DNA from: a virus
Length of the DNA: 64,000 nt
IMG/VR virus record: IMGVR_UViG_3300042311_001316
Span: 32,046-96,045 of that record
Reading direction: 5' to 3' (one strand)
The first letter of the stretch is position 1. Each line of letters opens with the position of its first letter. This document shows positions 14,969-30,437 of the stretch, piece after piece. A model generated the notes under the pieces. The model was not told the origin of the DNA. It worked only from the letters and a program-made list of their open reading frames with translations, and did no database searches. The position numbers and the translations under genes were made by a program.

Positions 14969-15679
14969 ATGATCGATTATCCTCTCTTAGAACGCCATAC
15001 CGACGAAATCGGTAACAGAAAATACATTATACCAAATGGTAAAAGATTACCATCGGTAACAACAATCCTTTCAAATTCTGGTGATAAAACATTTTTAGAA
15101 AATTGGAAAAATTGGGTTGGACATGATAAAGCCGAAGATATTAGAAATGAAGCTGGAAAAATCGGTACGTTAATGCATGAGCATTTAGAAGCGTATATTG
15201 AACAAAGAGAACGACCAACAGCGAATACCTATGCTCGTAAATTAGTAAAAAATATGAGTGAACAAATTATTGCAAATGGGTTAAGCAAAGTTGATGAAGT
15301 TTGGGGTATTGAAAAAGCATTATATTCATCATTAGGATGGGCAGGAACAGCCGATTTAATTGGTACTTATCAAGGCATCCCAAGTATAATGGATTATAAA
15401 AATACTAGAAAATTAAAAACTAAATCAGATGAATTAATAACACCAGAAAATAAATTAGGTGAATATTATTGTCAATTAACTGCTTATATAATTTCACATA
15501 ATGAAATGTTTCCTGATAAAAAAATTCGTCAAGGCGTTATTTTCATGGTTGATCGTGAATTAAATTTTGAAACTTATGTATTAAGAGAAGATTTATTAGA
15601 ATTTTGGAATGATGTTTGGTTAACACGAGTGGCAGAATATTATTCAAAAAATCCAGAATTAATTGAATTGTTAGATTGA
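14969..15679 (+). CDS. PD-(D/E)XK nuclease (RecB/MGME1-like exonuclease)
   Basis: 236 residues. The fold elements appear in order: GTLMHEHLEAYIEQ helix near residue 65, then WGIEKALYSSLGWAGTADLIG with the first catalytic Asp, and SIMDYKNTRK holding the D-x-K pair, followed by a YYCQLTAYIISHN helix with the Q-x3-Y motif of RecB-type nucleases. These enzymes degrade or trim DNA ends with metal ions. After its TGA the same frame stays open for 22 further codons (LTDQNYSISANDMNAYEKVENN, stop at 15746), so a readthrough or recently shortened form is possible. Confidence 0.75.
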   Translation: MIDYPLLERHTDEIGNRKYIIPNGKRLPSVTTILSNSGDKTFLENWKNWVGHDKAEDIRNEAGKIGTLMHEHLEAYIEQRERPTANTYARKLVKNMSEQIIANGLSKVDEVWGIEKALYSSLGWAGTADLIGTYQGIPSIMDYKNTRKLKTKSDELITPENKLGEYYCQLTAYIISHNEMFPDKKIRQGVIFMVDRELNFETYVLREDLLEFWNDVWLTRVAEYYSKNPELIELLD

Positions 15680-15730: not shown

Positions 15731-15762
15731 AAAGTAGAAAACAATTAATTGTTTTCTACTTT
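15731..15762. terminator. Bidirectional terminator between convergent genes
   Basis: Perfect 16-base arms (AAAGTAGAAAACAATT and its complement) with no loop spacer; the left arm follows the nuclease gene and the right arm contains the stop codon of the leftward radical SAM gene. Confidence 0.7.
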
Positions 15763-16928
15763 GATTTAGGAATTTTAGAATCAGCACTTGAAACACAACT
15801 TTTACTTATGCATTTTGTTGGTTGATCAAATATTTTAAATCCATTTACTAAATCTCCTAATGGTTGATCAGCACAACTATAGCCGCGTTTAACAATTCCA
15901 TTTGGTTCACGAATAATAATACTTTGATAACCAGAATTACAATTCCAATTTTCAAAATTATTAAAATTAAAACTGTTCATACGTTCAGCTTGATCAAGAT
16001 ACCATTTTTTGTTTTCTTCATCGGTTAATTCTACTTGCATTATTTGTGGAATTTTTTCTTGATTTTCTAAAACATCTTGTAATTTTTTATATTTTGGACG
16101 GGTTGGAATTTTATTATTTTTATCTAATGCTTGTTGTGTAAAGTCTCGTTGTGGCATACCATTATAAAGACGATTTAACATGTCTTGTGAATATCCATCA
16201 ACAATCTTTGTAGCATTATAATTGCTTTGTGGTTTTAATGTTGTATTAATCCCCAATTCATGAAAATAAAGTGCATTTTCCCAATCGAATTCAAATAAAT
16301 CAGGACGCATAACCATATTAATTGTTACTTGTATATCATTTTCTTGACAATATAATAATTTTTCAATAAATTTTTCTTTTTTAGCAAATTCAGAATGAAA
16401 ACTAGCTGTAATACTTACACGATGTAAATTTTTAGTTACTTCAACATATTCTTTTAACCATTTTAAATTTTTACTCATATTAGTTGTCATATGCACACTT
16501 TGATAATTTGTTTTTTCCAAATGAGTTGTATAATGATTTAAAATTTTTAAATAATCTGGATGTGCAGTAGGTTCACCACCAGAAAAACTAAAATGAAATG
16601 AATTAAAATTGTTTTCATTAGCTTGATAGATAATTTCATCAATTGTTTTTGTAATTACATCTAATGGTCGAAAATCTTTAATGTGTGTACTGGCGTAGCC
16701 CCAGCAGTAGGAGCAATGGGCATTTTCATATTTTTTCCCATTTACTTCAATAATTTTTTTAGATTTTTCATCAGGTTTTTTTAAAAAATTAAAATTGCAA
16801 TATCTTTGCAAAATCCAACTGACATTGAATAGATCACGCTCTAACATAGTGCGTTGACCAAATGATTTTATCTTATCAAAGGGAATTTTAGTAAAGTCAT
16901 ATTGTGACCATTTTAAATTATCGTTCAT
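15756..16928 (-). CDS. Radical SAM enzyme with split cluster motif
   Basis: 390 residues. The [4Fe-4S] ligands appear to be Cys44 in WILQRYCNF and Cys72/Cys75 in HCSYCWGYA. They would read CNFxCSYC but for an insertion of about 25 residues (Lys-rich, then a VNGKKY hairpin) between the first and second Cys. FSFSGGEPTAHPDYL is the SAM-binding GGEP motif. The C-terminal part has further Cys (NWNCNSG, YSCAD, CISKSC) that could bind an auxiliary cluster. It is not of the N-twitch type of its three neighbours. It starts after its own TAAATATT element, 15 bp from the next gene. Confidence 0.8.
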   Translation of the reverse strand: MNDNLKWSQYDFTKIPFDKIKSFGQRTMLERDLFNVSWILQRYCNFNFLKKPDEKSKKIIEVNGKKYENAHCSYCWGYASTHIKDFRPLDVITKTIDEIIYQANENNFNSFHFSFSGGEPTAHPDYLKILNHYTTHLEKTNYQSVHMTTNMSKNLKWLKEYVEVTKNLHRVSITASFHSEFAKKEKFIEKLLYCQENDIQVTINMVMRPDLFEFDWENALYFHELGINTTLKPQSNYNATKIVDGYSQDMLNRLYNGMPQRDFTQQALDKNNKIPTRPKYKKLQDVLENQEKIPQIMQVELTDEENKKWYLDQAERMNSFNFNNFENWNCNSGYQSIIIREPNGIVKRGYSCADQPLGDLVNGFKIFDQPTKCISKSCVSSADSKIPKSK

Positions 16929-16932
16929 AAAT

Positions 16933-16940
16933 AATATTTA
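16933..16940 (-). promoter_or_regulatory. Late-promoter-like element before 15756..16928
   Basis: Minus strand ACTAAATATTATTTATG precedes the radical SAM start, without a ribosome-binding site; it lies between two co-directional radical SAM genes and would give the last one its own late transcript. Confidence 0.45.
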
Positions 16941-16942
16941 GT

Positions 16943-18004
16943 TTAACTTTTAAATAATTTTGTCAATTTAAAAAAGTCTTGTTTTCTCAATTGATCTAAT
17001 TTATTGTTGTTTTCTAAAAAATTATTCCAATTTCCTTCTTTGATATTCAACAAATATTTTTTTATTTTATCAAATTGATTTTCAGAATAATAATCAATTA
17101 AATATTGTTTTTTATCAAATGAAATATGTTTTAAGTTTAAATAATCAGGATGTTCTAAAATATTCCAATAAATTTCACGATCACACCAATTATCTAATTC
17201 TTTTAAAAATTCGATATTGGTTATTTGAACTGTGCAGTGAATTTTTATTTCAGCTTTAAGTTGTTTTATAGTTTCATAATTTTTTAAAAATTGATTCCAT
17301 TTTGCAGGATAACGAATATACTCATAAACATTTTCAATTCCATCAACCGACAAATGTAATTTTAAATTAGAAAATTTTTCCCATAATTTTAAAACTTTAT
17401 CAGGTAATACAGTTAAATTTGTATTGTACTTTAATTCTATATTAGTTTTGTTATTATCGATCAACCATTGTAATATATCAATATGATGAGGGTTCAATAA
17501 AGGTTCTCCACCTGTAAAATAAATTGCTTCAATAAATTGTAAATTATTTTTTAATTGAACAAAAAATTCTTGGTTTTTATCCCAATTGTAAAGTTTAGTT
17601 TGTTCATTCCACATTTTTTGATGATCTTCTTGCCAAGCAGAACTAGAATAGCCATTACACATTCTACAACGTAAATTACAACTATTACCTAATCTTAAAT
17701 CTAAATAAACAATTTCTGTTTTTTCATTGTTTTTTATTTTTTTTAAATGAACAGAAAATTTTTCATTATAAGCTAATCTTGCACTTTTTAAACCAAAACT
17801 TTCTTCATTAAAACATCGTTTACAAACTGTTGGTTTTTTATTTTCCAACATTTCATTTTTAATTGATTTAAGGTAATTTTCTTTGTATTCTTCTATTTGA
17901 TCAAAGCGATAATTTGAAGATGATTGTGCATTACAGCAAACACGTAATTTTCCTGTTGGAGTAGTTGCTAAATGAATCCAAGGTAAAACACATAAATTAT
18001 TCAT
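16943..18004 (-). CDS. N-terminal-twitch radical SAM protein 1
   Basis: 353 residues. The N-terminus (CVLPWIHLATTPTGKLRVCC, then CKRC at 61-64) is a cysteine-rich region like the N-terminal twitch seen in a subfamily of radical SAM proteins. It is followed by the radical SAM core with CNLRCRMC (Cys109, Cys113, Cys116), FTGGEPLL (165-168) and LHLSVDGIENVYEYIRYPAKW. It shares this whole layout with the proteins at 17997 and 20664. Substrate unknown. Its start overlaps the upstream gene by 8 bp. Confidence 0.8.
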   Translation of the reverse strand: MNNLCVLPWIHLATTPTGKLRVCCNAQSSSNYRFDQIEEYKENYLKSIKNEMLENKKPTVCKRCFNEESFGLKSARLAYNEKFSVHLKKIKNNEKTEIVYLDLRLGNSCNLRCRMCNGYSSSAWQEDHQKMWNEQTKLYNWDKNQEFFVQLKNNLQFIEAIYFTGGEPLLNPHHIDILQWLIDNNKTNIELKYNTNLTVLPDKVLKLWEKFSNLKLHLSVDGIENVYEYIRYPAKWNQFLKNYETIKQLKAEIKIHCTVQITNIEFLKELDNWCDREIYWNILEHPDYLNLKHISFDKKQYLIDYYSENQFDKIKKYLLNIKEGNWNNFLENNNKLDQLRKQDFFKLTKLFKS

Positions 18005-19067
18005 CGATCCAACCTACTATTTCTTTGTCGATAACATCTTTATAATTTAAATTTCTAGTTGTATTAAAATAGTTTAAAGCAAATTTTAATTGTTCTTTAT
18101 CAAATTTATTTTCTTGTTGAATAAAATTAACTAATTCATCGTATTGATTGTGATTTTTTAATAATTGTAATTTGTTTAAAATGTATTCTTTTTTATCAGT
18201 TATATTGGCTTGGAAATATTCAGGCTTTCTTAATATCTCAAAATTTATTGGGATATTAAAATATTCATTTATTTTACCTAATTCACAAATATTAAAAAGC
18301 TGTACTGTACAATTAATCAATTGTTTTATATGTTGAAATTGTTGTAATTTAATTAAATTTTCTTCTATAATAGAAAATTTCAAAGGATAACGAATATATT
18401 TAAAAACATTATCTAAACCATCAATTGAGATTTTTATTTTGGCTTTGAGTTTATCAGTTAAATCAAAAAATTCTTCATCCCAAACAGATAAATTTGTTAC
18501 AATATTTAATTGTGGGCTTAAATTATTTTCAACTAAATGTTGTAATACTTTTTTATTATTAATATCTAATAAAGGTTCGCCACCTCGCAAATTAATTCTT
18601 TTTGCATTTTTTAAAAAAGGTTTAACTATATCAAAATTTAATTCTGATTTTAAATTTTTGCCTTTATAATGAATTGGTACATTTTTATTTTTAACCTCTG
18701 ATGCTATTGCCGAAGAACAACGTGGCGTACACATAATACATTTACTGTTACAAATATTAGAAAAATTTAAATCTAAAATTTCTGCTTGATCAAAAAATTC
18801 AGTTAATTTGTTTGGTAAAATAAATTGTTCATTTACAGTTAATCTTAAAGATTTTTTTCCTAATTCTTCATCTTTTTCACAACGCAAACAATTTTTTGGA
18901 AATTTATTATTAATAAAATCATTTCTAATTTGTTTCATAATTTCAGAATTATGGCGATTTTCAATGGGAATATTTTCAAAAGGCATATTTATTACAAAAC
19001 CACACGGTACAAACGTGCCATCTGAATGAAAACCATAACTTTTCCAAGGCATTACACATTTAACCAT
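17997..19067 (-). CDS. N-terminal-twitch radical SAM protein 2
   Basis: 356 residues from the ATG at 19067 (MVKCVMPWKSYGF). N-terminal Cys pattern (CVMPW, PCGF, CLRC), cluster motif CNSKCIMC (Cys106, Cys110, Cys113), LRGGEPLLD, and IKISIDGLDNVFKYIRYPLKF, parallel to the other two paralogs. The start lies inside the end of the sulfotransferase gene. The three paralogs are diverged from each other, so each may act on a different substrate or step. Confidence 0.8.
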   Translation of the reverse strand: MVKCVMPWKSYGFHSDGTFVPCGFVINMPFENIPIENRHNSEIMKQIRNDFINNKFPKNCLRCEKDEELGKKSLRLTVNEQFILPNKLTEFFDQAEILDLNFSNICNSKCIMCTPRCSSAIASEVKNKNVPIHYKGKNLKSELNFDIVKPFLKNAKRINLRGGEPLLDINNKKVLQHLVENNLSPQLNIVTNLSVWDEEFFDLTDKLKAKIKISIDGLDNVFKYIRYPLKFSIIEENLIKLQQFQHIKQLINCTVQLFNICELGKINEYFNIPINFEILRKPEYFQANITDKKEYILNKLQLLKNHNQYDELVNFIQQENKFDKEQLKFALNYFNTTRNLNYKDVIDKEIVGWIDE

Positions 19068-19845
19068 TATCAATCCAATCTAAAACTTCATTCCAATTTA
19101 AAATTATTTTATTTACATTATCAAAAGAGTAAGGATTTTTTCTTACAAAACCTTCATGATTAAAAGAACTTTTTTCAAAAATTGTTTCACCAATTTCATG
19201 TGGTAATTTATTTACAATTGAATTATATTCAATATTTTTATAAATTGAAAATTTATCTTTTGTTTGAATAAAAATTTCATATCGTTTTTTTATTTTATCA
19301 ACTGTATTTTTATCTAAATTAAATGGTTCGGGTAATTGATACTCTAATCCATTTAACAAATGAGTTGGATTATTTGAAAACCAAGAAATTGCATAACTTG
19401 CTATAATTTCTTTTAAATCACGATGTAAAACAATTGCTTGATAATTTTCTTTCAAATACTCAAAATCATCATCGGGAATTAAATGATGACTTAAAATTTT
19501 TAAAAAATAATGTTGATGTTTGTATTTTTCTAAAATTGTTTTAACTTTATAATCGTTTTTTAATAAAATATGATTTTTATTTATTAAATCTTCTTGGCAA
19601 GTAATATAAACTTCATTGGGAATTTTTCTTGTTCCTGGCGAATGTCTTACTTGAACTAAATTTTCATTTGTATCAACTAACCAGGGACATTCATTTTTAT
19701 TTTGATTGAATAACTCAGTTGGAGTTACACCAAAACTACAACTTGTTTTTGTTGCTAAATTATTATAAAATAAATAAAGTTGTAAACTACGATGTAATAA
19801 AAAACTTCCACTTCTACCACAAGAATAAACAAAATACTTTTTCAT
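19060..19845 (-). CDS. Sulfotransferase-like protein
   Basis: 261 residues. The N-terminus KKYFVYSCGRSGSFLLHRSL holds the PAPS 5'-phosphosulfate loop (G-R-S-G-S, residues 10-14). VLHRDLKEIIASYAISWF is the 3'-phosphate-binding arginine/serine motif. The family moves sulfate from PAPS to a hydroxyl or amine on sugars, peptides or small molecules. It is embedded in the radical SAM/amidinotransferase operon, so its acceptor may be that pathway's product. Confidence 0.75.
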   Translation of the reverse strand: MKKYFVYSCGRSGSFLLHRSLQLYLFYNNLATKTSCSFGVTPTELFNQNKNECPWLVDTNENLVQVRHSPGTRKIPNEVYITCQEDLINKNHILLKNDYKVKTILEKYKHQHYFLKILSHHLIPDDDFEYLKENYQAIVLHRDLKEIIASYAISWFSNNPTHLLNGLEYQLPEPFNLDKNTVDKIKKRYEIFIQTKDKFSIYKNIEYNSIVNKLPHEIGETIFEKSSFNHEGFVRKNPYSFDNVNKIILNWNEVLDWIDNG

Positions 19846-19852
19846 TATCTAT

Positions 19853-20686
19853 TTACTTTTTCAAATAAGTCAATAAAGCTCTAGTACCAATTAGTTTATT
19901 TTCAAAAATTGCACTATGAATACAATTTGTTTTTGTTAAATTAAAATCAAAACAAAGTTTTTCATATTCTTCTCGATAATAGTTCCATAAAAAATTATCA
20001 CCTAATGTTTCTATATAATGTAATGCCATAGCAGAATTAGTTTTATCAATCATATCATAAGCGTTCATTATACCAATACTTGTATTAGTTAAATCATTTT
20101 TAGATAAAATAACTCCAATTCTATTATTCATCATATCAAAAGATTTACTTAAACTAAAACCAATTTGTTTTATTTGACAATGACTTAAATCTAAAGTTAA
20201 TTGTTCGCTACAACCCAACCAACAAGCATCAATATAAATATCAATATTTCTTTCCGAACATATTTGTGAAATATCATTCCAATTATTGGGTAAAGATGAT
20301 GTGCATGTATTTGGTATGCTAATTATTAAAGGTATATTATTTTTTAGTTCTAATAATCCAACAGAATTATTGCCTAATTTTTGATGATATGAATATTCAC
20401 CATGTAAAACTTGTATTTTATTTGATTGATAACAATTATTAATAAAACCAGTACAGCCATTGGTTAAGTAATTATAATTAAAATTTTCTAATCCATATAT
20501 ATTATTATTTTTTGTAACATATTCGATAATTTTACTTTTTATTATTGATTGAAATTTTTTATCAGTTATTATTGATCGATATTTTTTTATGTCAAAAGAA
20601 AAATACGTATCATAAAAAATCTTATTCCAAATTGGTTTTGGGGTTGGTAATAAAAATTCTTTATTATAATATGGTGCAGTTTTCAT
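19853..20686 (-). CDS. Small PLP-dependent aminotransferase-like enzyme A
   Basis: 277 residues from the ATG at 20686, which has AAGGA at proper spacing; an ATG two codons upstream is also possible. Fold-type I features: YLTNGCTGFINNCYQ (cofactor phosphate loop), IDIYIDACWLG with the Asp that pairs with the PLP ring nitrogen, and GFSLSKSFDMMNNRIGVIL with Lys181 as the Schiff-base lysine and the conserved Arg. It is about 120 residues shorter than usual aminotransferases, lacking most of the C-terminal domain. Paralog of 23919..24689. Confidence 0.65.
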   Translation of the reverse strand: MKTAPYYNKEFLLPTPKPIWNKIFYDTYFSFDIKKYRSIITDKKFQSIIKSKIIEYVTKNNNIYGLENFNYNYLTNGCTGFINNCYQSNKIQVLHGEYSYHQKLGNNSVGLLELKNNIPLIISIPNTCTSSLPNNWNDISQICSERNIDIYIDACWLGCSEQLTLDLSHCQIKQIGFSLSKSFDMMNNRIGVILSKNDLTNTSIGIMNAYDMIDKTNSAMALHYIETLGDNFLWNYYREEYEKLCFDFNLTKTNCIHSAIFENKLIGTRALLTYLKK

Positions 20687-21710
20687 TAGCATTCCTTAAA
20701 ATATTATCAATTGCAATTGGACTTATATCTTTAAATTTTTTTCCTGTTTTAGTAAACCATAAATTTTCATAAACTATTAATTGTTTTTTATCAATATCAG
20801 AGATATTGATGTTATCAATTAATAAATTGTCGATTATTATTTTTGTTTTTTCTGGTAAATCAATTTCATTTAAAATATCTTTTGTTAATAAATTACAATT
20901 TAAAAAATTAGGATTTCTTAATATATGAAAGTACCAAGGTATATTTAAATTTAAAAAATAATCTTCAATTGATTTTAAATGCTCTAAATTTAACCATTGA
21001 ACAGTTGTTTGAGTTCTTACGTCTGATATTTTTTTAAATTCTTGTAAGTTTTTTTCTAAGGTTTTCCAATCAGTTCCTAATCGAATATATTCTGCAATAT
21101 GTCCTATTCCATCCACACTAACATTTATTTTTATATTTGAAAATTTTGATAATATTTGCCATATTTTTTTATTAAAAACACTTCCATTGGTTAAAAATTC
21201 TATTTCACAGGATAAATTATCGATTGATATTAATTTTTCTAAAATATCAATAACTTTATTTTCTAAAAATGGTTCACCTCCTGCAAAACTAATAAATTTA
21301 GCATCGTGTAAATTATTCAAATAATCATAATTTTTAATAACTTTATTATGTTTTTGTTTTAATTCCTTTTCCCATTTATTACTTGCGCTTGGCCCACACA
21401 TAATGCATTGAAAATTACAATGATTAGATAATTTAAAATCAAACGTTTGATAAATTTTATGATCTTTTTTAGCATCTTCAAATGAATATAAATTTCTGTT
21501 TAATTCTAAAATTCTTCTTGATTTTTTTCCTATTTTTTCATCATTATAACATCTTTTACATTCTGCGCTTTGCAAGTCATTTAACATATTATTTTTTATT
21601 TTTTTTAAAACATCATCATTGACGATTGCATCAGAATGGGCGCATAATCTTTGAGTATTATCAGTTTGGATATAAAAATGATTCCAAGGAACAGGACAAA
21701 AAGTTTTCAT
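20664..21710 (-). CDS. N-terminal-twitch radical SAM protein 3
   Basis: 348 residues. CPVPWNHFYIQTDNTQRLC and CKRC form the N-terminal Cys-rich region; cluster motif CNFQCIMC (Cys98, Cys102, Cys105); FAGGEPFLE; IKINVSVDGIGHIAEYIRLG. Starts with an ATGA overlap from 21707 and overlaps the next gene by 23 bp. With 16943 and 17997 it forms a divergent trio in one operon. Confidence 0.8.
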   Translation of the reverse strand: MKTFCPVPWNHFYIQTDNTQRLCAHSDAIVNDDVLKKIKNNMLNDLQSAECKRCYNDEKIGKKSRRILELNRNLYSFEDAKKDHKIYQTFDFKLSNHCNFQCIMCGPSASNKWEKELKQKHNKVIKNYDYLNNLHDAKFISFAGGEPFLENKVIDILEKLISIDNLSCEIEFLTNGSVFNKKIWQILSKFSNIKINVSVDGIGHIAEYIRLGTDWKTLEKNLQEFKKISDVRTQTTVQWLNLEHLKSIEDYFLNLNIPWYFHILRNPNFLNCNLLTKDILNEIDLPEKTKIIIDNLLIDNINISDIDKKQLIVYENLWFTKTGKKFKDISPIAIDNILRNANENCTIL

Positions 21711-22108
21711 TTTTTCATTATTTCATTAAAGTAATTTTCGGGCCAATTGTTATAATAAACTGTTTTTTTTAATATATTTCTTTTAATTTCCATATCTTTT
21801 CTGTTTTGTATAAAAATACAATTGGTAAAATTTTTAACAAAAAGTCCAGATGTTGGTGTTGATTTTAAAACGATCCAATCATCATTAAATTTTAAAGTTA
21901 AAAATGTTAATAAAATATTATCAATTTTATTATCACACCAAACGACATAAATTTTATCATTATCTGTAAAATTAAAATTATCAGTTGGTAATAAAAAATC
22001 AATTTTATTATTTATTCTAGCTGATTGGGCATAAGGACAAATATTTTTCTTTTCGATATTTGCTATTGACCATTCAATAAATTGTTTTTTAAATTCATCA
22101 AATTTCAT
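21707..22108 (-). CDS. Hypothetical protein of the biosynthetic island
   Basis: 133 residues, coupled by ATGA on both sides. FIEWSIANIEKKNICPYAQSAR near the start has a conserved-looking Cys-Pro-aromatic-Ala pattern faintly like a small bacterial family of unknown function (DUF1415-type); the rest (DKIYVVWCDNKIDNILLTFL, FIQNRKDMEIKRN) is not recognised. Because it is fully overlapped with its neighbours, it is probably a partner of the amidinotransferase or radical SAM enzyme. Confidence 0.55.
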   Translation of the reverse strand: MKFDEFKKQFIEWSIANIEKKNICPYAQSARINNKIDFLLPTDNFNFTDNDKIYVVWCDNKIDNILLTFLTLKFNDDWIVLKSTPTSGLFVKNFTNCIFIQNRKDMEIKRNILKKTVYYNNWPENYFNEIMKK

Positions 22109-23118
22109 AAATAATTTTCCATTTCACCAACTCTAGCAATATCTTGAGTACAACAATGAATGCCGCCATCCCAAAAATATTGATGTTTAAAATTCCATAT
22201 TATAGGATTTACTTTAAATTTTTCTAATTGATCAAATACTTTTTTATTAAAATGCGTAAAAATAATATTATTTTCATCAATACTTAAAGCATTAACATCA
22301 AAAACAGTTTCATCCACATAACCAACCCAATCTTTTAACCATTTTTGAATAAAATCACCATAAAAATGTTGTTTTCTTAATGATAAAAATTCATTTGGTA
22401 ATGGATTAAATTCTTCAATTAAAATAACATCCCAATTTTTTAATTGTTCAGGAATCCAATCTTTATTCCAAGTAATCAATAATCCTGGTTTAACTAAACA
22501 AATTTTTCCATCAATATGTCCGCCAATAGGAAAATCAACAAATTCACAATCGTAAAATTTGGGTAATATGTTTTTAATCCATTCTTTTCCTTTTAAATTT
22601 CCTTTGCCATTTTTTTCATCTTCTTCTATTGATTGGGATATTAAAATATGTTTACCTAGTTTAATCATATTAGCAGCATCAAAATATAATTCTACATTTT
22701 TATTTTTTTCTATTTTAGGTTGTGGCATAGATAAATTAACAAAATCATCGATCCAATTTTTTTTATAACTTAAATGTTCAAATTGACGATTATCATGTTT
22801 AGTAAACATATCAATTGCTAAATTACCATAAACAAATAAAACATCTCTTGGCATCAAAGGTGGACTCATAAACTTATAATCATTCCAAGGTAAAGAAATA
22901 TTTTCTTCAAAATTATCTACTAAAATATCAGGGCGAATAACTTCAATATCAAATGTTTTTAGTAATTTTTCTAATTCATTTAATTGTTCATTTGTTTCAT
23001 GTAATATAATTTGTATGCTATTTTTAAATTCTTGATTTTTATGATAATCAAAAATCTTTTGGTCATATGTTTTACCTACAATAATTTTTTTTAATTTTTG
23101 AAACTCAGTAAAAGTCAT
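22105..23118 (-). CDS. Amidinotransferase-like enzyme A
   Basis: 337 residues with the order of motifs seen in arginine:glycine and arginine:inosamine amidinotransferases: MPRDVLFVYGN, YFDAANMIKLGKHILIS, DFPIGGHIDGKICLVKPGLLITW with the catalytic His-x-Asp, and WDGGIHCCTQDIAR near the C-terminus with the nucleophile Cys322. The family moves the amidino group of arginine to an amine to give a guanidino product. Starts by ATGA overlap from a 2OG oxygenase. Paralog of 24686..25699. Confidence 0.8.
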   Translation of the reverse strand: MTFTEFQKLKKIIVGKTYDQKIFDYHKNQEFKNSIQIILHETNEQLNELEKLLKTFDIEVIRPDILVDNFEENISLPWNDYKFMSPPLMPRDVLFVYGNLAIDMFTKHDNRQFEHLSYKKNWIDDFVNLSMPQPKIEKNKNVELYFDAANMIKLGKHILISQSIEEDEKNGKGNLKGKEWIKNILPKFYDCEFVDFPIGGHIDGKICLVKPGLLITWNKDWIPEQLKNWDVILIEEFNPLPNEFLSLRKQHFYGDFIQKWLKDWVGYVDETVFDVNALSIDENNIIFTHFNKKVFDQLEKFKVNPIIWNFKHQYFWDGGIHCCTQDIARVGEMENYL

Positions 23119-23885
23119 TCGATTTCCTCATAAAGAGTAAACGCCAATCCACATTTTGTTTTAGTATTATTTTTTCTATGATCAGCACTACAATGAATTT
23201 GTGTTGGATCAATAACCATAATTGAACCAATTTTCCAAGGCAATATTTTTTCTATATGTAAATCAGTTAAATTTTCTTTTGGAAGAAATGAAAGATATTC
23301 ATCGTATATTTTTTGATCTTGCCAATTATTTTCTTTATTATATTTTCTTGATCCTTTTTCTAAATCATAAAATTCTATATCATCATGAGAATAAACATCT
23401 TTCCAATAACCTTTTACGCTATCTTTTTTAAATCCTTGACAAAAAATAGTACCATAATTTAAAACTCGTTCACGAAAGCAAATTAATCCAGAATGTAAGT
23501 CTTCATTTTTACTTGGGGTTACAAATAAAGGTATGACAAAATGTTTTAAAGGTATTAATTTATGATCAAATATTGATGATTCTTCTTCGCTCATACTGTC
23601 TGCGTGTAAAGCATAAGGATGTAAAGTTAAATAAAAATTTCCACCATAATGTTTTTTTGAGAAATCTTTATTTATTAATCTTTTAAACCTATCAGAAAAT
23701 TTATCAGCAATAATAGTATGTTTATTTTTAATTTTAAACAACATTGTGCCACTTTCTTTTATTGTTGTTGATGAATGCTCTCGCCACATAAAATCAATCA
23801 TCCAAGAAATTTCTTCTTTAGAGAAAAAATCATCAACTTGAAAACATTCACTTAAATTTGTTTTCCATTTATCAAAATTAGTCAT
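23115..23885 (-). CDS. 2OG-Fe(II) oxygenase-like protein A
   Basis: 256 residues. The iron ligands are probably His94-x-Asp96 in YALHADSM and His231 in PTQIHCSADHRKNNTKTKCGLAFT, with a basic residue nearby for 2-oxoglutarate. PLKHFVIPLFVT and WKIGSIMVIDP are typical jelly-roll strands. It is the first gene of the main leftward island operon and starts after a TAAATATTT element. Confidence 0.65.
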   Translation of the reverse strand: MTNFDKWKTNLSECFQVDDFFSKEEISWMIDFMWREHSSTTIKESGTMLFKIKNKHTIIADKFSDRFKRLINKDFSKKHYGGNFYLTLHPYALHADSMSEEESSIFDHKLIPLKHFVIPLFVTPSKNEDLHSGLICFRERVLNYGTIFCQGFKKDSVKGYWKDVYSHDDIEFYDLEKGSRKYNKENNWQDQKIYDEYLSFLPKENLTDLHIEKILPWKIGSIMVIDPTQIHCSADHRKNNTKTKCGLAFTLYEEIE

Positions 23886-23887
23886 GT

Positions 23888-23896
23888 AAATATTTA
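23888..23896 (-). promoter_or_regulatory. Late-promoter-like element heading the main island operon
   Basis: Minus strand ATTTAAATATTTACATG precedes the oxygenase start codon at 23885. It would drive at least 23885 to 16943, whose genes overlap or nearly abut. Confidence 0.5.
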
Positions 23897-23918
23897 AATG
23901 AAAACCGATTTAATGATT

Positions 23919-24689
23919 TTAGTATAAACTAGATAAACAAATTCTTGAATATTCGTTTCCACGATTAAATTGTTTAAACTTACCAAAGCTGTATCCTAAA
24001 ATAACACTATCACTTGGTATTATTTTTAATTTATCACAAATAGAAATTTGTTTAATTCTATATTTTTCATATAACGTATCTATATTATTATGTATAATAT
24101 AATTATAAGCTATATTCATTCCTAGAAACGGTAAATGATTATTTTGATTTAATAATTCAATAGGATCATCATCATATTTTTTAGTAAATCTAATACCACA
24201 TCTATATTGAAAAACCGGAATTATTTTATGCATAGAATGCGCTATAACATCAATACAATTGTTATTTGGTATTTTTATCTTTTTTGTTGTGCCATAATAA
24301 GCCAAATCTAAAAAAACTTTAATATCGTTTACATCACAATAATTTAATATTTCATCAATATTTTGAAAGCATCCGTTATCACAAAACGGAAAACTAATAG
24401 CTAAAATTCCTTCTTTTATTTCTTTAAAATTTTTTATAAAATTAATATTCATATTTAAAAATTTTGCCACATTTTGATAATATGAATATTCACCAACAAA
24501 TAAATTCAAGGTTTTTGTTTTATTTTTCATTAACCAAACATCAATTGATTGTGTTATTCCTGTTGTTATATTAATTTGATCAAAATCATTTATACCTAAA
24601 AATTTTTGATATTTTAATTTATAATCATTTGATAATATAAATGAATTAGTTATTTTATTAAAAATTGGTTTTATTTGTTTTAAACTCAT
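23919..24689 (-). CDS. Small PLP-dependent aminotransferase-like enzyme B
   Basis: 256 residues from the ATG at 24689, which overlaps the amidinotransferase stop as ATGA (a longer start at 24716 is less likely). INITTGITQSIDVWL, VGEYSYYQ, IKVFLDLAYYGTT (Asp128) and IDVIAHSMHKIIPVFQYRCGIRF (Lys155, then Arg) align with the protein at 19853. It too lacks the usual C-terminal domain. Together with the two genes before it, it forms a second copy of the oxygenase-amidinotransferase-PLP module. Confidence 0.65.
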   Translation of the reverse strand: MSLKQIKPIFNKITNSFILSNDYKLKYQKFLGINDFDQINITTGITQSIDVWLMKNKTKTLNLFVGEYSYYQNVAKFLNMNINFIKNFKEIKEGILAISFPFCDNGCFQNIDEILNYCDVNDIKVFLDLAYYGTTKKIKIPNNNCIDVIAHSMHKIIPVFQYRCGIRFTKKYDDDPIELLNQNNHLPFLGMNIAYNYIIHNNIDTLYEKYRIKQISICDKLKIIPSDSVILGYSFGKFKQFNRGNEYSRICLSSLY

Positions 24690-25699
24690 TTTCTTTTTAA
24701 ATCCAAAGTAATACAATGTGGACCACCACCCAATGTCCTACAATGTGTTAGTTTAATTGGTATGCAATCAAAATTGTGGTTTTTTAATAATTTCATTAAA
24801 GGTTTTTGTGTTTCTTCTACTATAATAGTTCGTTCATCAATACTTAATATATTCATAGCCATCCAAATACTACTATTACCAAAGTCTTGATGTATTTGAG
24901 TAGGGATCGGTTCATCGAAATAAATACAATTCCAATTTTTGAAAAATTCCGGCAGGTTATGTTTATTAACTCTTGAAGAATTTAATAAAATTGTATTATC
25001 ATTTAATGGAACAAAAGTTGTATCAACATGCATGTAAGAATAAAAATTTTCTAAAATATGTAGTTTATAATTTTTTGGTATATTTCTTTTTAACCATTCT
25101 GCGCCTTTTAAATTTCCAGTATTGCTTACTAAATAAAATATATTATTATCTACTTTAAAAATATTTGCGGCATCAAATAAAATTTCTTCATTTGTTAATG
25201 TTGGTATTTTTAAATCATTTAATTGATAATTTTTATCTAATAATTTTTGCTTTGGGGCGCTGATCCAGTTAAACCCTTCTTGAAATTTTTCTTCAAAAAT
25301 TTCAAATAAAGAGAAATTCTCAAAATATCTTGATCGTAACACATTTGGTGATTCAATTATAGTATTTTCTATTACTAATGCTGTGTCTCTTGGGCAATAA
25401 GAAAAATATTGTTCAGTTTTCCAAAAGCTATTACTAATTTTATTTTTATTAATTGGTTTACTTCTATATGTTTTTATATTATGCGACCTTAATAATTCTT
25501 CAAATTTTTCTAAATCATCGAATGTTTCATCAATAATATTTTTAGGATATTGACCTAATTTCAATTTTTTAAATTCATTATTTGATAAATTAGCATATTC
25601 GATACTATGCATAGATTTATCTTTTGTATTAGGTTTAATAGCATTTATAATATTACCTATTATAACTTCTTGTAATGTTGAATATTCGTTTTTAATCAT
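24686..25699 (-). CDS. Amidinotransferase-like enzyme B
   Basis: 337 residues, the same length as paralog A. YCPRDTALVIENTIIES, ILFDAANIFKVDNNIFYLVS, YSYMHVDTTFVPLNDNTILL (catalytic His-x-Asp) and TLGGGPHCITLDLKRK with nucleophile Cys329. The GGGPHC end is closer to the glycine amidinotransferase pattern than paralog A is. ATGA overlaps join it to the genes on both sides. Confidence 0.8.
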   Translation of the reverse strand: MIKNEYSTLQEVIIGNIINAIKPNTKDKSMHSIEYANLSNNEFKKLKLGQYPKNIIDETFDDLEKFEELLRSHNIKTYRSKPINKNKISNSFWKTEQYFSYCPRDTALVIENTIIESPNVLRSRYFENFSLFEIFEEKFQEGFNWISAPKQKLLDKNYQLNDLKIPTLTNEEILFDAANIFKVDNNIFYLVSNTGNLKGAEWLKRNIPKNYKLHILENFYSYMHVDTTFVPLNDNTILLNSSRVNKHNLPEFFKNWNCIYFDEPIPTQIHQDFGNSSIWMAMNILSIDERTIIVEETQKPLMKLLKNHNFDCIPIKLTHCRTLGGGPHCITLDLKRK

Positions 25700-26289
25700 T
25701 TATAGATGCTCTTTCTTGGTATTACATTTTCAGTATCAGACGTATAATATATAAATCTCAATGCTTCTGCATTATTAGAATTTTTACTAACTGAATGCCA
25801 AGAATTTTCAGTATTTTCAAATATAACAAAATTATTTTTAATCCAATCGTATGTAACTTTATTATTATCATTTTCTAAAATTAATTGACAATCGCTATTA
25901 TTTAAAAAATAAATTCCAGTTAAAAATCTTTTTAAACCTAGATAGCTATTAATTGTATAATCTATATGTGCTTCAACCATATGATTTTCAGGTATTCGCA
26001 TAAAACCCCCGCCCCAAAAATTCATATCAACAATTATTCCTTTTTTATTAAAATAATTTTCTAATTTTTTTATAAATTTATGATTATAAAAATAATTTAC
26101 GGGTATATTAGTAATATTTTCATCTAAATCATAAATCCAAGTATACTCGTGTAATAATGTGTTTTTATTTTGATAAATTTTGCATTCTTTTTCTGTTAAT
26201 TTATTAAAATAAATTTCTAATGTATTTGTAATTTCATTAGAAAAAACATTTGTTAATAATAAATGATTATAAGGTTTATTTTTAAACAT
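25696..26289 (-). CDS. 2OG-Fe(II) oxygenase-like protein B
   Basis: 197 residues. VEAHIDYT gives His108-x-Asp110; ENSWHSVSKNSNNAEALRFIYYTS gives His165 and Arg178, the full facial triad and 2OG-binding Arg. LKRFLTGIYFLNN is a core strand. Smaller than paralog A and not closely similar. First gene of a short leftward operon from the bidirectional element at 26290. Confidence 0.75.
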   Translation of the reverse strand: MFKNKPYNHLLLTNVFSNEITNTLEIYFNKLTEKECKIYQNKNTLLHEYTWIYDLDENITNIPVNYFYNHKFIKKLENYFNKKGIIVDMNFWGGGFMRIPENHMVEAHIDYTINSYLGLKRFLTGIYFLNNSDCQLILENDNNKVTYDWIKNNFVIFENTENSWHSVSKNSNNAEALRFIYYTSDTENVIPRKSIYK

Positions 26290-26301
26290 ATAAATATTTA
26301 T
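26290..26301. promoter_or_regulatory. Palindromic bidirectional late-promoter-like element
   Basis: ATAAATATTTAT is a perfect 12-base palindrome and fills the entire gap between divergent start codons at 26289 (leftward oxygenase) and 26302 (rightward sulfotransferase). Neither gene has room for a ribosome-binding site, so transcripts from this element would be nearly leaderless. Confidence 0.5.
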
Positions 26302-26943
26302 ATGAAAATATTATTATTATCTTCTGAAAGAAGTGGAAGTACCGCATTTCAAGAATTTTTAGCTAATAAAAATAATATTAAAAATTATTTAGAACCTTTT
26401 GAAAATACTCAAAATAAAAGATTTACAAAAAGTAATGAATATTCAATAATTAATGCTATAAATATATTATGTAACGATAATAATTATATTATAAAAATAC
26501 AAATGAATCAAATGAATGATAATAAAATAAAATTTATAATTAATGAGTTACAAATTGATAATATAATAGTATTATTGAGAAAAAATTTTATTGAACAATG
26601 TTTAAGTAATCAATTATCAAATTATACGGATAAATGGCACAATTCAGATTTAAAACCAAAAGATAACATAATACATCATGAAATGATAAAAAATAAAACA
26701 TTTAAGGCAAATGAAAAATATTTTATAAATCAAGAAACTTACAATAAAAGATTATTAAATTGGGGGTTAAAAAATCCTATTTATTTTCATGAAGATAATA
26801 TTGTTAATTTTAATTGTACACGTTATAAAAAATTAAATAACAATATTATCACTAATTTTACTAATCAAAATGAAATATTTCATTTTAATACTAATTATAA
26901 TGTTAGTTTGAGAAAATATTTAAATGAAAATTTATATTATTAA
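26302..26943 (+). CDS. Sulfotransferase-like protein, diverged
   Basis: 213 residues from the ATG at 26302; a frame extending upstream to 26263 would overlap the divergent gene and is rejected. MKILLLSSERSGSTAFQEFL carries the PAPS loop; IIVLLRKNFIEQCLSNQLS corresponds to the 3'-phosphate motif. It is shorter than the sulfotransferase-like protein at 19060. Overlaps the next gene by 20 bp. Confidence 0.65.
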   Translation: MKILLLSSERSGSTAFQEFLANKNNIKNYLEPFENTQNKRFTKSNEYSIINAINILCNDNNYIIKIQMNQMNDNKIKFIINELQIDNIIVLLRKNFIEQCLSNQLSNYTDKWHNSDLKPKDNIIHHEMIKNKTFKANEKYFINQETYNKRLLNWGLKNPIYFHEDNIVNFNCTRYKKLNNNIITNFTNQNEIFHFNTNYNVSLRKYLNENLYY

Positions 26944-27091
26944 AGAACCAACAGAAAATGATTTTTTTTATATAGAAGATTTAATTTCTTATTTTAATTT
27001 AGAAATAGTCGAAGATATTAAACAAGCAGATATTTTGTTTTTTCAACCTTATTATGATTATGGTAATTATAATAATGCACATACGATTTAA
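26924..27091 (+). CDS. 5' part of an interrupted glycosyltransferase-like gene
   Basis: 55 codons (MKIYIIKEPTENDFFYIEDL, then DIKQADILFFQPYYDYG) ending in a TAA inside the loop of a perfect 21-bp inverted repeat. The same frame continues past the stop into 27098..27964. The region corresponds to the N-terminus of the paralog at 27951 (MKIFDPN..., IEQADFVWIENSP), so the two parts together make one normal gene. Confidence 0.5.
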   Translation: MKIYIIKEPTENDFFYIEDLISYFNLEIVEDIKQADILFFQPYYDYGNYNNAHTI

Positions 27092-27111
27092 TCGTATGTG
27101 CATTATTATAA
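27067..27111. repeat. Perfect 21-bp palindrome inside a coding region
   Basis: Arms 27067-27087 and 27091-27111 are exact reverse complements, separated by TTA. The in-frame TAA at 27089-27091 is in the loop. It is neither a terminator (no T-run) nor intergenic. Possible origins are a templated insertion, a recoding/bypass structure or an assembly artefact. Confidence 0.85.
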
Positions 27112-27964
27112 ACCTATTGTTTATTTTGATATTTGTGATTATAGCCCATTATATGAAAATAAAGAACTATTTAATTTTTTAAAAGAAAACAATATAAAAT
27201 TAGTAACCTTTGATAAAGAAAATATTAAAATTATAAATGATGAATTTATAATGAATTATTGGGAATTAAAAAGTTATCTAACAACATTAACAATAAAAAA
27301 TGAAATTAATAAAAGATTTTTATGTTTAAATCGCAGGATTCATGAATTTAGAAATACATTAATTGGTGAATTATATAATCAAAATTTATTAGATAATTTT
27401 TTATTAGGTTTTGGGCGCGAACGATCAGGTAAAAAACAACATTTTGATTATAATAATTTAAAATATATAACAAATAACAATTATAAAAATTTTGAAAAAC
27501 AATTACCAATTATATTACAAAACAAAGTTAACAATTTAACTGTTGAAGATATATTTTTATTAAAACAAGATTTGTTCTCTAAAACCCAAATGAGTATAGT
27601 AACAGAAACAAACTTTAATTTTCCCATTTTAACAGAAAAAACATATTTAGAATTAAGTAATAATCGACCTTTTATAATAGCTGGCGGCGCTTATTCATTA
27701 AAAAAATTACACAATAAAGGTTTCAAAACTTTTTCTTTATTATGGGATGAAAATTATGATTTAATAGAAGATCATACAAAAAGGTTAAATGCTATCGTAG
27801 AAGTAATTAGATTTCTAAATAATTTAGATAGTAAAGAGTTTAATAATATTATTGAGAAATCAAAAATAATATCAGAATATAATAAACAAATATGTAATGA
27901 AATTTTACAAAAAACTAAAAATAACTTTAATCAATATATTAGGAATATAAATGAAAATATTTGA
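27098..27964 (+). CDS. 3' part of an interrupted glycosyltransferase-like gene
   Basis: 288 residues in the same frame as 26924 (174 bases apart). KPIVYFDICDYSPLY follows, then RFLCLNRRIHEFRN and a C-terminal block MSIVTETNFNFPILTEKTYLELSNNRPFIIAGG, FSLLWDENYDLIEDHTKR that aligns with the next gene. The E-T...E-K...E-L...G-P-F-I pattern resembles the C-terminal donor-binding half of fucosyltransferase/exostosin-type GT-B enzymes. Without the upstream 55 codons it has no ribosome-binding site, and its ATG-like start would be a CTG/GTG/ATG inside the palindrome arm. Confidence 0.6.
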   Translation: MHYYKPIVYFDICDYSPLYENKELFNFLKENNIKLVTFDKENIKIINDEFIMNYWELKSYLTTLTIKNEINKRFLCLNRRIHEFRNTLIGELYNQNLLDNFLLGFGRERSGKKQHFDYNNLKYITNNNYKNFEKQLPIILQNKVNNLTVEDIFLLKQDLFSKTQMSIVTETNFNFPILTEKTYLELSNNRPFIIAGGAYSLKKLHNKGFKTFSLLWDENYDLIEDHTKRLNAIVEVIRFLNNLDSKEFNNIIEKSKIISEYNKQICNEILQKTKNNFNQYIRNINENI

Positions 27965-28931
27965 TCCAAACTATAAAAATAATATTGAAATAAAAAATAA
28001 TTGGAATTGGTATGGATTACTTGGTTTAAAAAGATTAATTCCTGAAATAGAAATAACTGAAAATATCGAACAAGCAGATTTTGTTTGGATTGAAAACTCA
28101 CCTAATAAAAGAGTTAGTAAAAGAAAAGATTTTCCTGTTTATTCAAATAAAACACATATTTTAAATGCAGGTTTAGAATATGAAAATACTAAATATGATT
28201 TACCAAAAAATTATATTGTGTTTGATTGTAATGAAAAAAACAATCAAATAGATTTTAACTTATGTAAATTAACAAGTTGGTTAGATGGTCAATTAGTCAC
28301 AGGAAATAAAGAAATAAAATTTAATTTTGGATTTCGTCGCCCTGATATTCATAGAAACTCATTGGAAAAATTAATAAATAATTTTTCTGTTTATCATTAT
28401 CGTTGTGAAATTCCCGAAAAAATAAACGATGATATTTTTTTAAATTCAAAATATGCCGATTTATTTCAAGAAAATATATCGGATAATATCTTTACAGATA
28501 TTGCTGGTGTTCACAATCAAGTTCCTGAATCTTTTGTTAACATGTATAAAGAAACAAATATATCAATTGTAATGGAAACAATGTTTTGGCATGATTTATG
28601 CTTTGATAGTGAAAAAGTTCATCGAGAGTTAGCTTGTGGAATGATACCAATTATTTTTGGACCTATTGGTATTGTTGAAAAATTAAAAAATCAAGGATTT
28701 ATTTTTCCTGAACATTTATGGGATCATAGTTATGATAAGATTATTGATCCATTAAAACGATTTGATTTTCTCGTTGACCAATTATTTGAAATAGAAAAAA
28801 CATCTAATAGAGAATTTGATTTATGGAAAAAAGAATTTGAAATAATTGGTTTTAAAAATCATCAAACAGCTAAACGGAATTTAAAAAATGATATTGATAA
28901 TCTTAGAAAAATTTTTCATAATTTTCTGTAA
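27951..28931 (+). CDS. Glycosyltransferase-like protein (fucosyltransferase/exostosin-like C-terminus)
   Basis: 326 residues, intact paralog of the interrupted gene. HRNSLEKLINNFSVYHYRCEIPE precedes ISIVMETMFWHDLCFDSEKVHRELACGMIPIIFGPIG and FPEHLWDHSYDKIIDP. The E-K-x-x-R-E-L-A-x-G-x-x-P-I-x-x-G pattern is typical of GT-B enzymes that recognise nucleotide sugars. It overlaps the previous gene by 14 bp and converges on 28903..29280. Glycosylation of the island's product or of virion proteins is possible. Confidence 0.6.
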   Translation: MKIFDPNYKNNIEIKNNWNWYGLLGLKRLIPEIEITENIEQADFVWIENSPNKRVSKRKDFPVYSNKTHILNAGLEYENTKYDLPKNYIVFDCNEKNNQIDFNLCKLTSWLDGQLVTGNKEIKFNFGFRRPDIHRNSLEKLINNFSVYHYRCEIPEKINDDIFLNSKYADLFQENISDNIFTDIAGVHNQVPESFVNMYKETNISIVMETMFWHDLCFDSEKVHRELACGMIPIIFGPIGIVEKLKNQGFIFPEHLWDHSYDKIIDPLKRFDFLVDQLFEIEKTSNREFDLWKKEFEIIGFKNHQTAKRNLKNDIDNLRKIFHNFL

Positions 28932-29537: not shown

Positions 29538-29817
29538 TATAAATTCTTTCATTTTGTAATAGCCATAATATTTCATCTACTTCATTATTAAATTTAAAAG
29601 AAATACTAATAAATTTCAAAGAAATACAGTCATATTCTATTTTTAATAGACTATATATTATATTTTTAGGATAATTAATTTTAAAAATATGGTTAAGTTT
29701 TTTTATATGATCTTGATCACTTGTATTATCATTTAACTCAATGAAATACCCAAAAGCATATTCTTTGTTTTTTGTAAAAGTTACAGGGTTTATAGAATAT
29801 ATAAAATATTCATTCAT
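29515..29817 (-). CDS. Hypothetical protein with DEILWLLQ tail
   Basis: 100 residues; LKFISISFKFNNEVDEILWLLQNE near the C-terminus followed by ten further residues. Shares one base with the stop of the dNMP kinase gene, so it is read from the same mRNA. Confidence 0.65.
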   Translation of the reverse strand: MNEYFIYSINPVTFTKNKEYAFGYFIELNDNTSDQDHIKKLNHIFKINYPKNIIYSLLKIEYDCISLKFISISFKFNNEVDEILWLLQNERIYNDKILHN

Positions 29818-30437
29818 CAGTTATTCCATAATTTCACTAAATTTTCAACTTGGCTTTCTAATTGATCGATTGATCCATTATTATAAATGATATGGTCAAA
29901 CGCGCAGTTCAACCAATTCCATTCTGAAATATGTATTTTAAGCTCGTTTAAGCGTTCTACAGCAATTTTGTCGCCTCTTGCGGCTTTCACCCCATCTAAT
30001 ATCCAAGAGGGTTCTGGATCGCGCCTAATCCAGATTGTAGGGTACTTATTTTTCTTTAACCAATCAAATTCATTTGGGAATCTACAGTCGGTTACAACAA
30101 CATCCTTGCCATCAAATTTTTTAGCTAAACTTAACAACCAAATGTCAGGATGAAAATGTTCACGCATAACATCAGTTCCGATAAATTGCAAAGCAAAACG
30201 TGGAGTAAAATTATTAATACCCAATCGGTTACTCCACCAAACATCAATAGTTTCTCTCCAAACTCTACTTTCAGTTGTTTTGCCTTCTAATAATTCTCTA
30301 TCCCAAGAAAAAATATTAGCACAAGCATCTTTTAACGTGCCAGCAAAACTGGCTTTTTCAAAATGATAATTTTCAATTAAGATACTTCCTAGCGTATCTT
30401 TTCCTGCGCCAGCAAATCCACCTATTCCTACAATCAT
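29817..30437 (-). CDS. 1: Deoxynucleoside monophosphate kinase (T4 gp1-like)
   Basis: 206 residues. P-loop GFAGAGKDT at 7-15, then SFAGTLKDACANIFSW, the substrate-binding TPRFALQFIGTDVMREHFHPDIWLL and a VVVTDCRFPNEFDWL segment, all typical of phage dNMP kinases. The T4 enzyme phosphorylates dTMP, dGMP and hydroxymethyl-dCMP for DNA synthesis. No modified-base gene is seen in this window to refine the substrate. Confidence 0.88.
   Translation of the reverse strand: MIVGIGGFAGAGKDTLGSILIENYHFEKASFAGTLKDACANIFSWDRELLEGKTTESRVWRETIDVWWSNRLGINNFTPRFALQFIGTDVMREHFHPDIWLLSLAKKFDGKDVVVTDCRFPNEFDWLKKNKYPTIWIRRDPEPSWILDGVKAARGDKIAVERLNELKIHISEWNWLNCAFDHIIYNNGSIDQLESQVENLVKLWNN

Follow-up and report, generated by a model that had tools for sequence, protein, structure and literature searches.

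A phage island of N-twitch radical SAM, aminotransferase and amidinotransferase genes, tentatively read as a guanidino-forming tailoring pathway

What does a phage do with fifteen closely packed genes for radical SAM enzymes, amidinotransferases and other candidate tailoring enzymes? The island that raises this question lies in a 64,000-nucleotide stretch of DNA (the window, meaning the whole of the stretch analysed here; GC 18-34%), positions 32,046 to 96,045 of the 96-kb IMG/VR virus record IMGVR_UViG_3300042311_001316, and phage islands of this sort, found in records that each hold 5 to 23 matches to the N-twitch radical SAM model, have gone functionally unexplained since a related one was described in 2010. 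Overall, we believe that the island is best read as a tailoring pathway whose substrate is a sugar or glycan, and we put the chances of this a little short of even. The chemistry predicted for each enzyme is well founded; the order of the steps, the substrate, the product and its destination (virion, host surface or DNA) we infer.

Consider the pathway that such a set of enzymes would allow. The N-twitch radical SAM enzymes would introduce carbonyls by oxidising positions on a sugar-like substrate (a glycan, nucleotide-sugar or cyclitol), the pyridoxal phosphate (PLP) enzymes PLP1 and PLP2 would turn the carbonyls into amines, and AmtA and AmtB would transfer the amidino group of arginine to the amines, giving guanidino groups; OX1 and OX2 would hydroxylate the product, and the putative sulfotransferases would sulfate it. 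Because there are two PLP and two amidinotransferase genes, as in streptidine, two streptidine-like rounds of amine-to-guanidine conversion are suggested, and the product would most likely decorate a glycan, either on the host surface or on the virion. A multi-step, guanidino-forming pathway had been proposed in the initial annotation, and that much stands as the best reading of the enzymes, while the glycosylation and the late, virion-directed part of the proposal find no support in the results. The genes concerned, with two nearby features at the end, are as follows (2OG, 2-oxoglutarate; aa, amino acids).

15756..16928, minus strand: rSAM1, radical SAM, split CxxxCxxC and a C-terminal Cys, 390 aa, last gene; PF04055 43.6 bits; relatives 57-58% identical end the operon in L023/L149
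16943..18004, minus strand: rSAM2, N-twitch radical SAM, 353 aa; NF033640 320 bits
17997..19073, minus strand: rSAM3, N-twitch radical SAM, 358 aa; NF033640 209 bits
19060..19845, minus strand: ST1, sulfotransferase-like by its CGRSGS P-loop only, 261 aa
19853..20692, minus strand: PLP1, predicted short fold-type-I aminotransferase, 279 aa; AlphaFold 2 (AF2) pLDDT 93.4; Foldseek HisC etc., E ~4e-9; D155, SLSK180-183
20664..21710, minus strand: rSAM4, N-twitch radical SAM, 348 aa; NF033640 223 bits; C98-C102-C105; N-terminal C5/C23/C51/C54
21707..22108, minus strand: H133, conserved small protein, 133 aa, CPxA...YYxxW; 18-member family beside AmtA; AF2 pLDDT 89
22105..23118, minus strand: AmtA, amidinotransferase of a mostly viral subfamily, 337 aa; HsvA 5wpi E 5.5e-16; phrog_25854 E 8.8e-27; D147/H201/C322
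23115..23885, minus strand: OX1, 2OG oxygenase-like, 256 aa; H94xD96...H231 invariant in 9 relatives; same island position in L023/L149; no Pfam match
23919..24716, minus strand: PLP2, predicted short aminotransferase of the same family as PLP1, 265 aa; D137, SMHK161-164
24686..25699, minus strand: AmtB, arginine:X amidinotransferase, StrB1-like, 337 aa; 1bwd StrB1 E 8.7e-72; SxtG 5.4e-50; HsvA 1.4e-47; D176/H224/C329
25696..26289, minus strand: OX2, 2OG-Fe(II) oxygenase-like, 197 aa, first minus-strand operon gene; PF13640 E 1.4e-5, 26.4 bits against a cut-off of 27; HxD at 108
26263..26943 (start perhaps 26302), plus strand: ST2, sulfotransferase-like by its RSGS P-loop only
27098..27964, plus strand: GTa, family of no assigned kind, 288 aa; recurrent beside phage amidinotransferases; no glycosyltransferase match in Pfam or PDB
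27951..28931, plus strand: GTb, relative of GTa (29% identical), 326 aa
12902..13534, minus strand: SAMMT, 210 aa, here 2.2 kb off the operon; relative of a gene that heads many marine radical SAM islands (L023/L149 and others) and is found in a Bdellovibrionia chromosome
15731..15762, no strand: perfect palindrome with 16-bp arms at the operon 3' end; probable bidirectional terminator

The guanidino chemistry is indicated by AmtA and AmtB, both of which show homology to arginine:X amidinotransferases (AGAT/StrB1) across the full pentein domain, the DAAN, HxD and GGxHC motifs and the full Asp-His-Cys triad, with matches to StrB1, HsvA, SxtG and AGAT; the two amidinotransferases of the initial annotation are thus borne out, and no Pfam model reached its cut-off for either protein. 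The nearest solved structure to AmtB is the inosamine-phosphate amidinotransferase StrB1, and AmtA matches HsvA, SxtG and AGAT at E 5.5e-16 or weaker. In a tree of 119 amidinotransferase proteins, AmtA falls among the genes of phage radical SAM and PLP islands and AmtB falls in the other half, where phage members of its group frequently have UDPG/GDP-mannose dehydrogenase and GTa genes as neighbours, the node uniting AmtB with its nearest neighbour being weakly supported (0.31). GTa and GTb adjoin the operon in the window too. Since the two amidinotransferases come from separate halves of the tree, and GTa and GTb sit beside the operon as in the AmtB-type groups, the island has the look of a hybrid between two phage modules.

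The two PLP enzymes foreseen at the outset are likewise well supported as predicted aminotransferases. Neither has a Pfam match, and the family has no Pfam model; in an alignment of 45 of its sequences, the Asp, the S..K and a Gly are invariant. Because the family profile matched the PDB only weakly by sequence (E 0.0043), structure comparison was used for PLP1, whose AF2 model matches HisC, kynurenine and prephenate aminotransferases in Foldseek (E ~4e-9). As modelled, PLP1 has the class I/II aminotransferase fold in shortened form, and it combines the predicted fold of the fold-type-I PLP aminotransferases with their PLP lysine and pyridine-binding Asp.

Four radical SAM enzymes with CxxxCxxC had also been proposed. 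All four proteins exceed the PF04055 cut-off; the motif is present in rSAM2, rSAM3 and rSAM4, and in rSAM1 it is split by 24 aa. The former three carry four N-terminal Cys as well and exceed the curated cut-off (170 bits) of the N_Twi_rSAM model NF033640. Against this model rSAM1 falls under the cut-off, with a 26-bit partial match only (G000:C1:48443-48793), and its class is given by PF04055 alone. In rSAM1, C44 is parted from C72-x-x-C75 by the insertion, which lies just before the second Cys (72 nt, in frame, window 16640-16830, minus strand, between the first and second Cys). Because relatives at 57-58% identity keep the motif whole (CNYRCSYC, with no insertion), the cluster of rSAM1 may be altered or lost. 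A translational bypass of the 72 nt was considered and dropped, there being no stop codon and nothing else in its favour. Ahead of CxxxCxxC, C5, C23, C61 and C64 are invariant in 29 N-twitch relatives, and columns 6-78 of the radical SAM profile match the auxiliary-cluster (twitch) domain of BtrN (4m7s/4m7t, E 4e-4 to 7e-4). Because the N-twitch domain has the auxiliary Cys number of BtrN, two-electron oxidation would, by analogy, be the likeliest reaction of these enzymes.

The remaining tailoring steps are assigned with less certainty. OX1 and OX2 are probable 2OG oxygenases, and the two that the initial annotation named have moderate support, OX2 lying just below the PF13640 cut-off and OX1 having the HxD...H triad with no Pfam match. 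Of the two proposed sulfotransferases, the RSGS P-loop motif is present in both ST1 and ST2, but no sulfotransferase family model matches either in Pfam or PHROG, nor ST1 in NCBIfam. Glycosylation by two glycosyltransferase-like genes, also suggested, is not supported, as Pfam, PHROG and PDB profile searches gave no glycosyltransferase match for GTa or GTb. H133 has no PDB match by sequence or, with its AF2 model, by fold.

Is this a chance assembly of genes, or one kept together elsewhere? When viral contigs were scanned in two alignment-based searches for the amidinotransferases, one of the searches gave at least 582 confirmed relatives, and 81-83 non-redundant amidinotransferase locus groups were mapped; the counts and gene order that follow are among the matches listed, with neighbourhood meaning 7 kb from the amidinotransferase gene. 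In 51 of 83 groups this neighbourhood holds one or more radical SAM genes matched by the models, and in 28 it holds at least three; the PLP family occurs in 21, with two or more radical SAM genes in 16, and the GTa family in 27. As a rough isolate-collection baseline, whose search sensitivity differs from that of the contig scans, tblastn found AmtA in 15, rSAM2 in 41 and the PLP family in 1 of 50,697 phage records. PLP genes lie on average 2.5 genes from the amidinotransferase gene (6.1 when shuffled) and H133 genes 2.4 (7.3 when shuffled), both closer than in any of 300 within-locus shuffles. Radical SAM genes are no closer than the other genes of the fetched loci (3.72 against 3.51 genes); because they fill whole islands, their adjacency to the amidinotransferase gene proves nothing by itself. 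In the closest loci the order AmtA-rSAM-PLP-OX1-H133-rSAM-rSAM-rSAM1 is kept on one strand, and gene order is conserved in distantly related marine viruses at 24-58% identity. The initial annotation had allowed that its genes might prove to be unrelated housekeeping families or show no conserved co-occurrence; neither check refuted the proposed pathway, and the set is found to co-occur in relatives.

Starting from the PLP family, N-twitch radical SAM genes are present in 76 of 79 loci (not dereplicated) and an amidinotransferase gene in 17, so that the island of radical SAM and PLP genes is a larger class of which amidination is an optional part. The 5 to 23 N-twitch model matches per record were seen in 11 records examined, some of them under the cut-off. 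Island contents differ widely between relatives, and the extra genes of the viral relatives include UDPG/GDP-Man dehydrogenase, epimerase, DegT/StrS aminotransferase and NodU carbamoyltransferase. The literature, as far as it was covered, yielded no description of the marine island class. Some other proteins recur in these loci. Proteins of 538-1456 aa lie beside GTa or AmtA in one phage group, the member in L064 (4883-7732) being built of repeated units (WxPDPxDPPYxYVFGNQW...PGATExKYxD); a small protein matching the C-terminus of arginyl-tRNA-protein transferase (PF04377; L084:9203-9649) is recurrent near AmtA; and in marine islands the gene for a uniformly conserved protein of ~75 aa separates SAMMT from the first of the radical SAM genes (L023:2157-2384 and relatives). 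This protein was considered as a carrier protein or as the precursor of a ribosomally synthesized and post-translationally modified peptide (RiPP), and it fits neither.

The island also has a bacterial counterpart. When about 85,000 species genomes were scanned with AmtA patterns, five loci were confirmed, among them a 917-kb contig of a Bdellovibrionia metagenome-assembled genome that carries an island of 30 kb, in which 13 radical SAM genes of the N-twitch type that exceed the cut-off are joined by PLP, amidinotransferase and SAMMT genes. The genes flanking it encode a uridylyltransferase of the UDPGP type, a protein kinase and a sigma-70 factor, which places the island in the chromosome, provided that the bin is sound. 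Of 291 Bdellovibrionota genomes, 94 have N-twitch radical SAM genes over the cut-off, against 1 of 289 genomes of the class of another hit; the third or so of sampled Bdellovibrionota genomes that have them often have several each. SAMMT, radical SAM and PLP genes recur in twelve 20-kb stretches from seven of these genomes, glycosyltransferase family 2 is the commonest Pfam family among 81 other neighbours of the radical SAM genes (7 of 81), and epimerases lie upstream in one locus. Because the remaining neighbours are largely ordinary genes, these neighbourhoods are a pointer towards surface polysaccharide and no proof of it. The kind of island is thus widespread among uncultured viruses, many of them aquatic phages, and they share it with Bdellovibrionota, bacteria of the predatory type. 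A broader proposal, that it belongs to a large class of guanidino- and amino-sugar islands for cell or virion surfaces, common to aquatic phages and Bdellovibrionota, of which the AmtA/AmtB hybrid in the window would give a bis-guanidino sugar, we put forward as possible rather than probable.

Sugar or glycan tailoring is favoured by the likeness of AmtB to StrB1, the aminotransferase fold of the PLP enzymes, the BtrN-like twitch domain, the conserved operon in distant marine viruses, the sugar-related genes of viral relatives and the glycosyltransferase and epimerase genes near the bacterial radical SAM genes. Several observations weigh against it. The window's own island has no sugar-specific enzyme, GTa and GTb being unproven; PLP1 and PLP2 are not sugar aminotransferases of the DegT/DnrJ/StrS type (no PF01041 match); the BtrN match is weak (E ~5e-4), the radical SAM core is nearer to SkfB (a peptide enzyme), viperin and others than to the BtrN core, and one of the four cluster motifs is split. 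Some of this favours the modification of a peptide or protein, RiPP-like or of the tail fibre, in which radical SAM enzymes would act on residues and the amidinotransferases and 2OG oxygenases on side chains: the core has SkfB and anSME among its matches, N_Twi_rSAM is similar to many peptide maturases, and a related island in phage Mosig adjoins tail fibre genes. Nonetheless, the operon has no gene resembling a RiPP recognition element, no precursor peptide is found among island open reading frames (ORFs) of at least 80 aa, and the ~75-aa protein of the relatives shows even conservation from end to end and has no counterpart in the window. StrB1 and AGAT enzymes, moreover, act on small amines, and we consider a peptide substrate unlikely. 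Another reading is a diffusible guanidino compound (antibiotic-, siderophore- or osmolyte-like) produced in infection, and the tools do overlap those of natural-product clusters (the amidinotransferases HsvA, SxtG and StrB1), with a NodU carbamoyltransferase near several relatives. But no carrier protein, nonribosomal peptide or polyketide synthase, exporter or self-resistance gene was seen in the island, a secreted product would bring a lytic phage little gain, and the idea seems to us quite improbable.

Phage base-modification pathways also employ radical SAM and PLP enzymes, and a QueD-like gene lies in the neighbourhood of the CP220 cluster, so that hypermodification of the bases of the phage DNA deserves consideration. 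The thymidylate/hydroxymethylase family PF00303 is, however, absent from both records of this phage, which are incomplete and hold only ThyX, and is present in only 3 of 11 (incomplete) records rich in radical SAM genes, while homologous islands occur in bacterial chromosomes; we give DNA modification very little chance. Nor do we expect the island to be a degraded, hitch-hiking hypervariable region with no coherent pathway, to which we would assign a similarly slight probability: the broken motif of rSAM1 and the highly variable contents of the relatives would fit, but the ORFs are all intact and overlapping, catalytic residues are retained, and order is kept at 24-58% identity.

If sugar or glycan tailoring is the right reading and the product is a guanidino-glycan, phages would bring an entire sugar-tailoring pathway into infection. 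With a conserved core (amidinotransferase, short PLP enzyme, OX1, H133 and rSAM1), two kinds of isolated phage (the CP220 type and Mosig) and a bacterial counterpart, the question becomes testable.

The layout of the island agrees with the ~13 kb of tightly overlapping genes first reported, all 15 ORFs being in place: 12 tightly packed, mostly overlapping genes run on the minus strand (26289 down to 15756) and three on the plus strand (26263-28931). A second, independent 146-kb IMG/VR assembly of the same virus overlaps the window with 4 differences in 64 kb and carries the region. An exonuclease gene (14969-15679) flanks one side and, beyond three small ORFs, a deoxynucleoside monophosphate kinase gene (29817-30437) the other. 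Because about ten other gene junctions of the phage have palindromes styled like that at 15731-15762, the operon is punctuated like the remaining genome. A tail sheath, a UvsX-like recombinase and a T4-type RNA ligase/tail fibre attachment gene identify the virus as a T4-type myovirus. A near-DNA search of 50,697 phage records gave no match to the window, and single-sequence scans of viral contigs returned the same virus only and no further relative. Elsewhere in the phage, a family of ~102-aa proteins (YYVNGEKFTT...HRLTGPA...WLKxHP) shows extreme paralogue expansion, with 40 members in the 146-kb record and 20 in the window (for example 30439-30747; also L246-L253), and there is a full-length NAD synthetase gene (window 52870-54534; phrog_36784, E 1e-125).

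Between the two gene sets lies CATATAAATATTTATATG, an 18-bp perfect AT palindrome (26287-26304) with divergent start codons at both ends and TATAAATA on both strands within it; the TATAAATA pair (26289-26302) is 5 nt from each start codon. Because the pair is part of this palindrome so near the start codons, it is poor evidence for late promoters. Across the whole window TATAAATA is rarer than chance, with 9 observed against 21.7 expected and at least 9 in all 100 shuffles. The late-type start elements of the initial annotation are therefore not supported as late promoters, and no result speaks for late, virion-directed expression. A separate inverted repeat, with perfect 22-bp arms and a 1-base centre (27067-27111), overlaps the GTG start of GTa.

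How, then, does the island compare with known systems? The streptidine branch of the streptomycin pathway runs through two amine-to-guanidine rounds with the amidinotransferases StrB1 and StrB2 and the aminotransferases StsC and StsA. The window shares the two amidinotransferases, one of them StrB1-like, and the two aminotransferases; it differs in its PLP family and in radical SAM enzymes that would take the place of NAD-type dehydrogenases, and Pfam searches of the island found no genes for an inositol-phosphate acceptor, a StrS-type aminotransferase or a kinase. The twitch radical SAM dehydrogenase BtrN, from butirosin synthesis, converts a cyclitol alcohol to a ketone in a two-electron oxidation, with a four-Cys auxiliary cluster as the proposed electron acceptor (PMC9012708). 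The N-twitch enzymes share the four-Cys auxiliary-cluster domain, which is N-terminal here and C-terminal in BtrN, and their core is not specifically BtrN-like.

Among phages, the claim that no phage system with this set is known proves too strong, given the CP220/CPt10 module and an operon of almost the same make-up in marine virus contigs. A cluster of 10 genes in CPt10, and one of 12 in CP220, encode five radical SAM proteins along with a putative glycine amidinotransferase; the clusters were called interchangeable, "highly unusual" and probably non-essential, their function being left unassigned (Timms et al. 2010, PMC2853527). Like the phage of the window, these Campylobacter Firehammervirus members are T4-type phages with clustered radical SAM genes and an amidinotransferase, and in phage WX1 one gene bears an aminotransferase annotation and another is distantly related to rSAM1. 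The CP220 type differs in having one amidinotransferase (25-32% identical to AmtB) and annotated nucleotide-sugar transferase genes not seen in the window's island, and our models found in it no member of the window's PLP family or of H133. Pelagibacter phage Mosig EXVC030M (MT647606), an isolated marine T4-type phage, combines a PLP homologue, MoaA-like, NodU and DegT genes and Asp/Arg hydroxylases in one block; its island, beside the tail fibre genes, has no annotated amidinotransferase. The marine islands L023/L025-L027 (on contigs of 135-257 kb) and L149/L031 share with the window the order AmtA-rSAM-PLP-OX1-H133-rSAM-rSAM1, with AmtA 41-45% and rSAM1 57-58% identical. The L023/L149-type islands have no AmtB, one PLP gene and up to 11 radical SAM genes, with a B12-binding radical SAM in L023 and with SAMMT and the 75-aa gene at the island head. 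In this context, the kind of island has been known since 2010, and what the window adds to it is a second lineage of amidinotransferases, along with two aminotransferases and with oxygenases.

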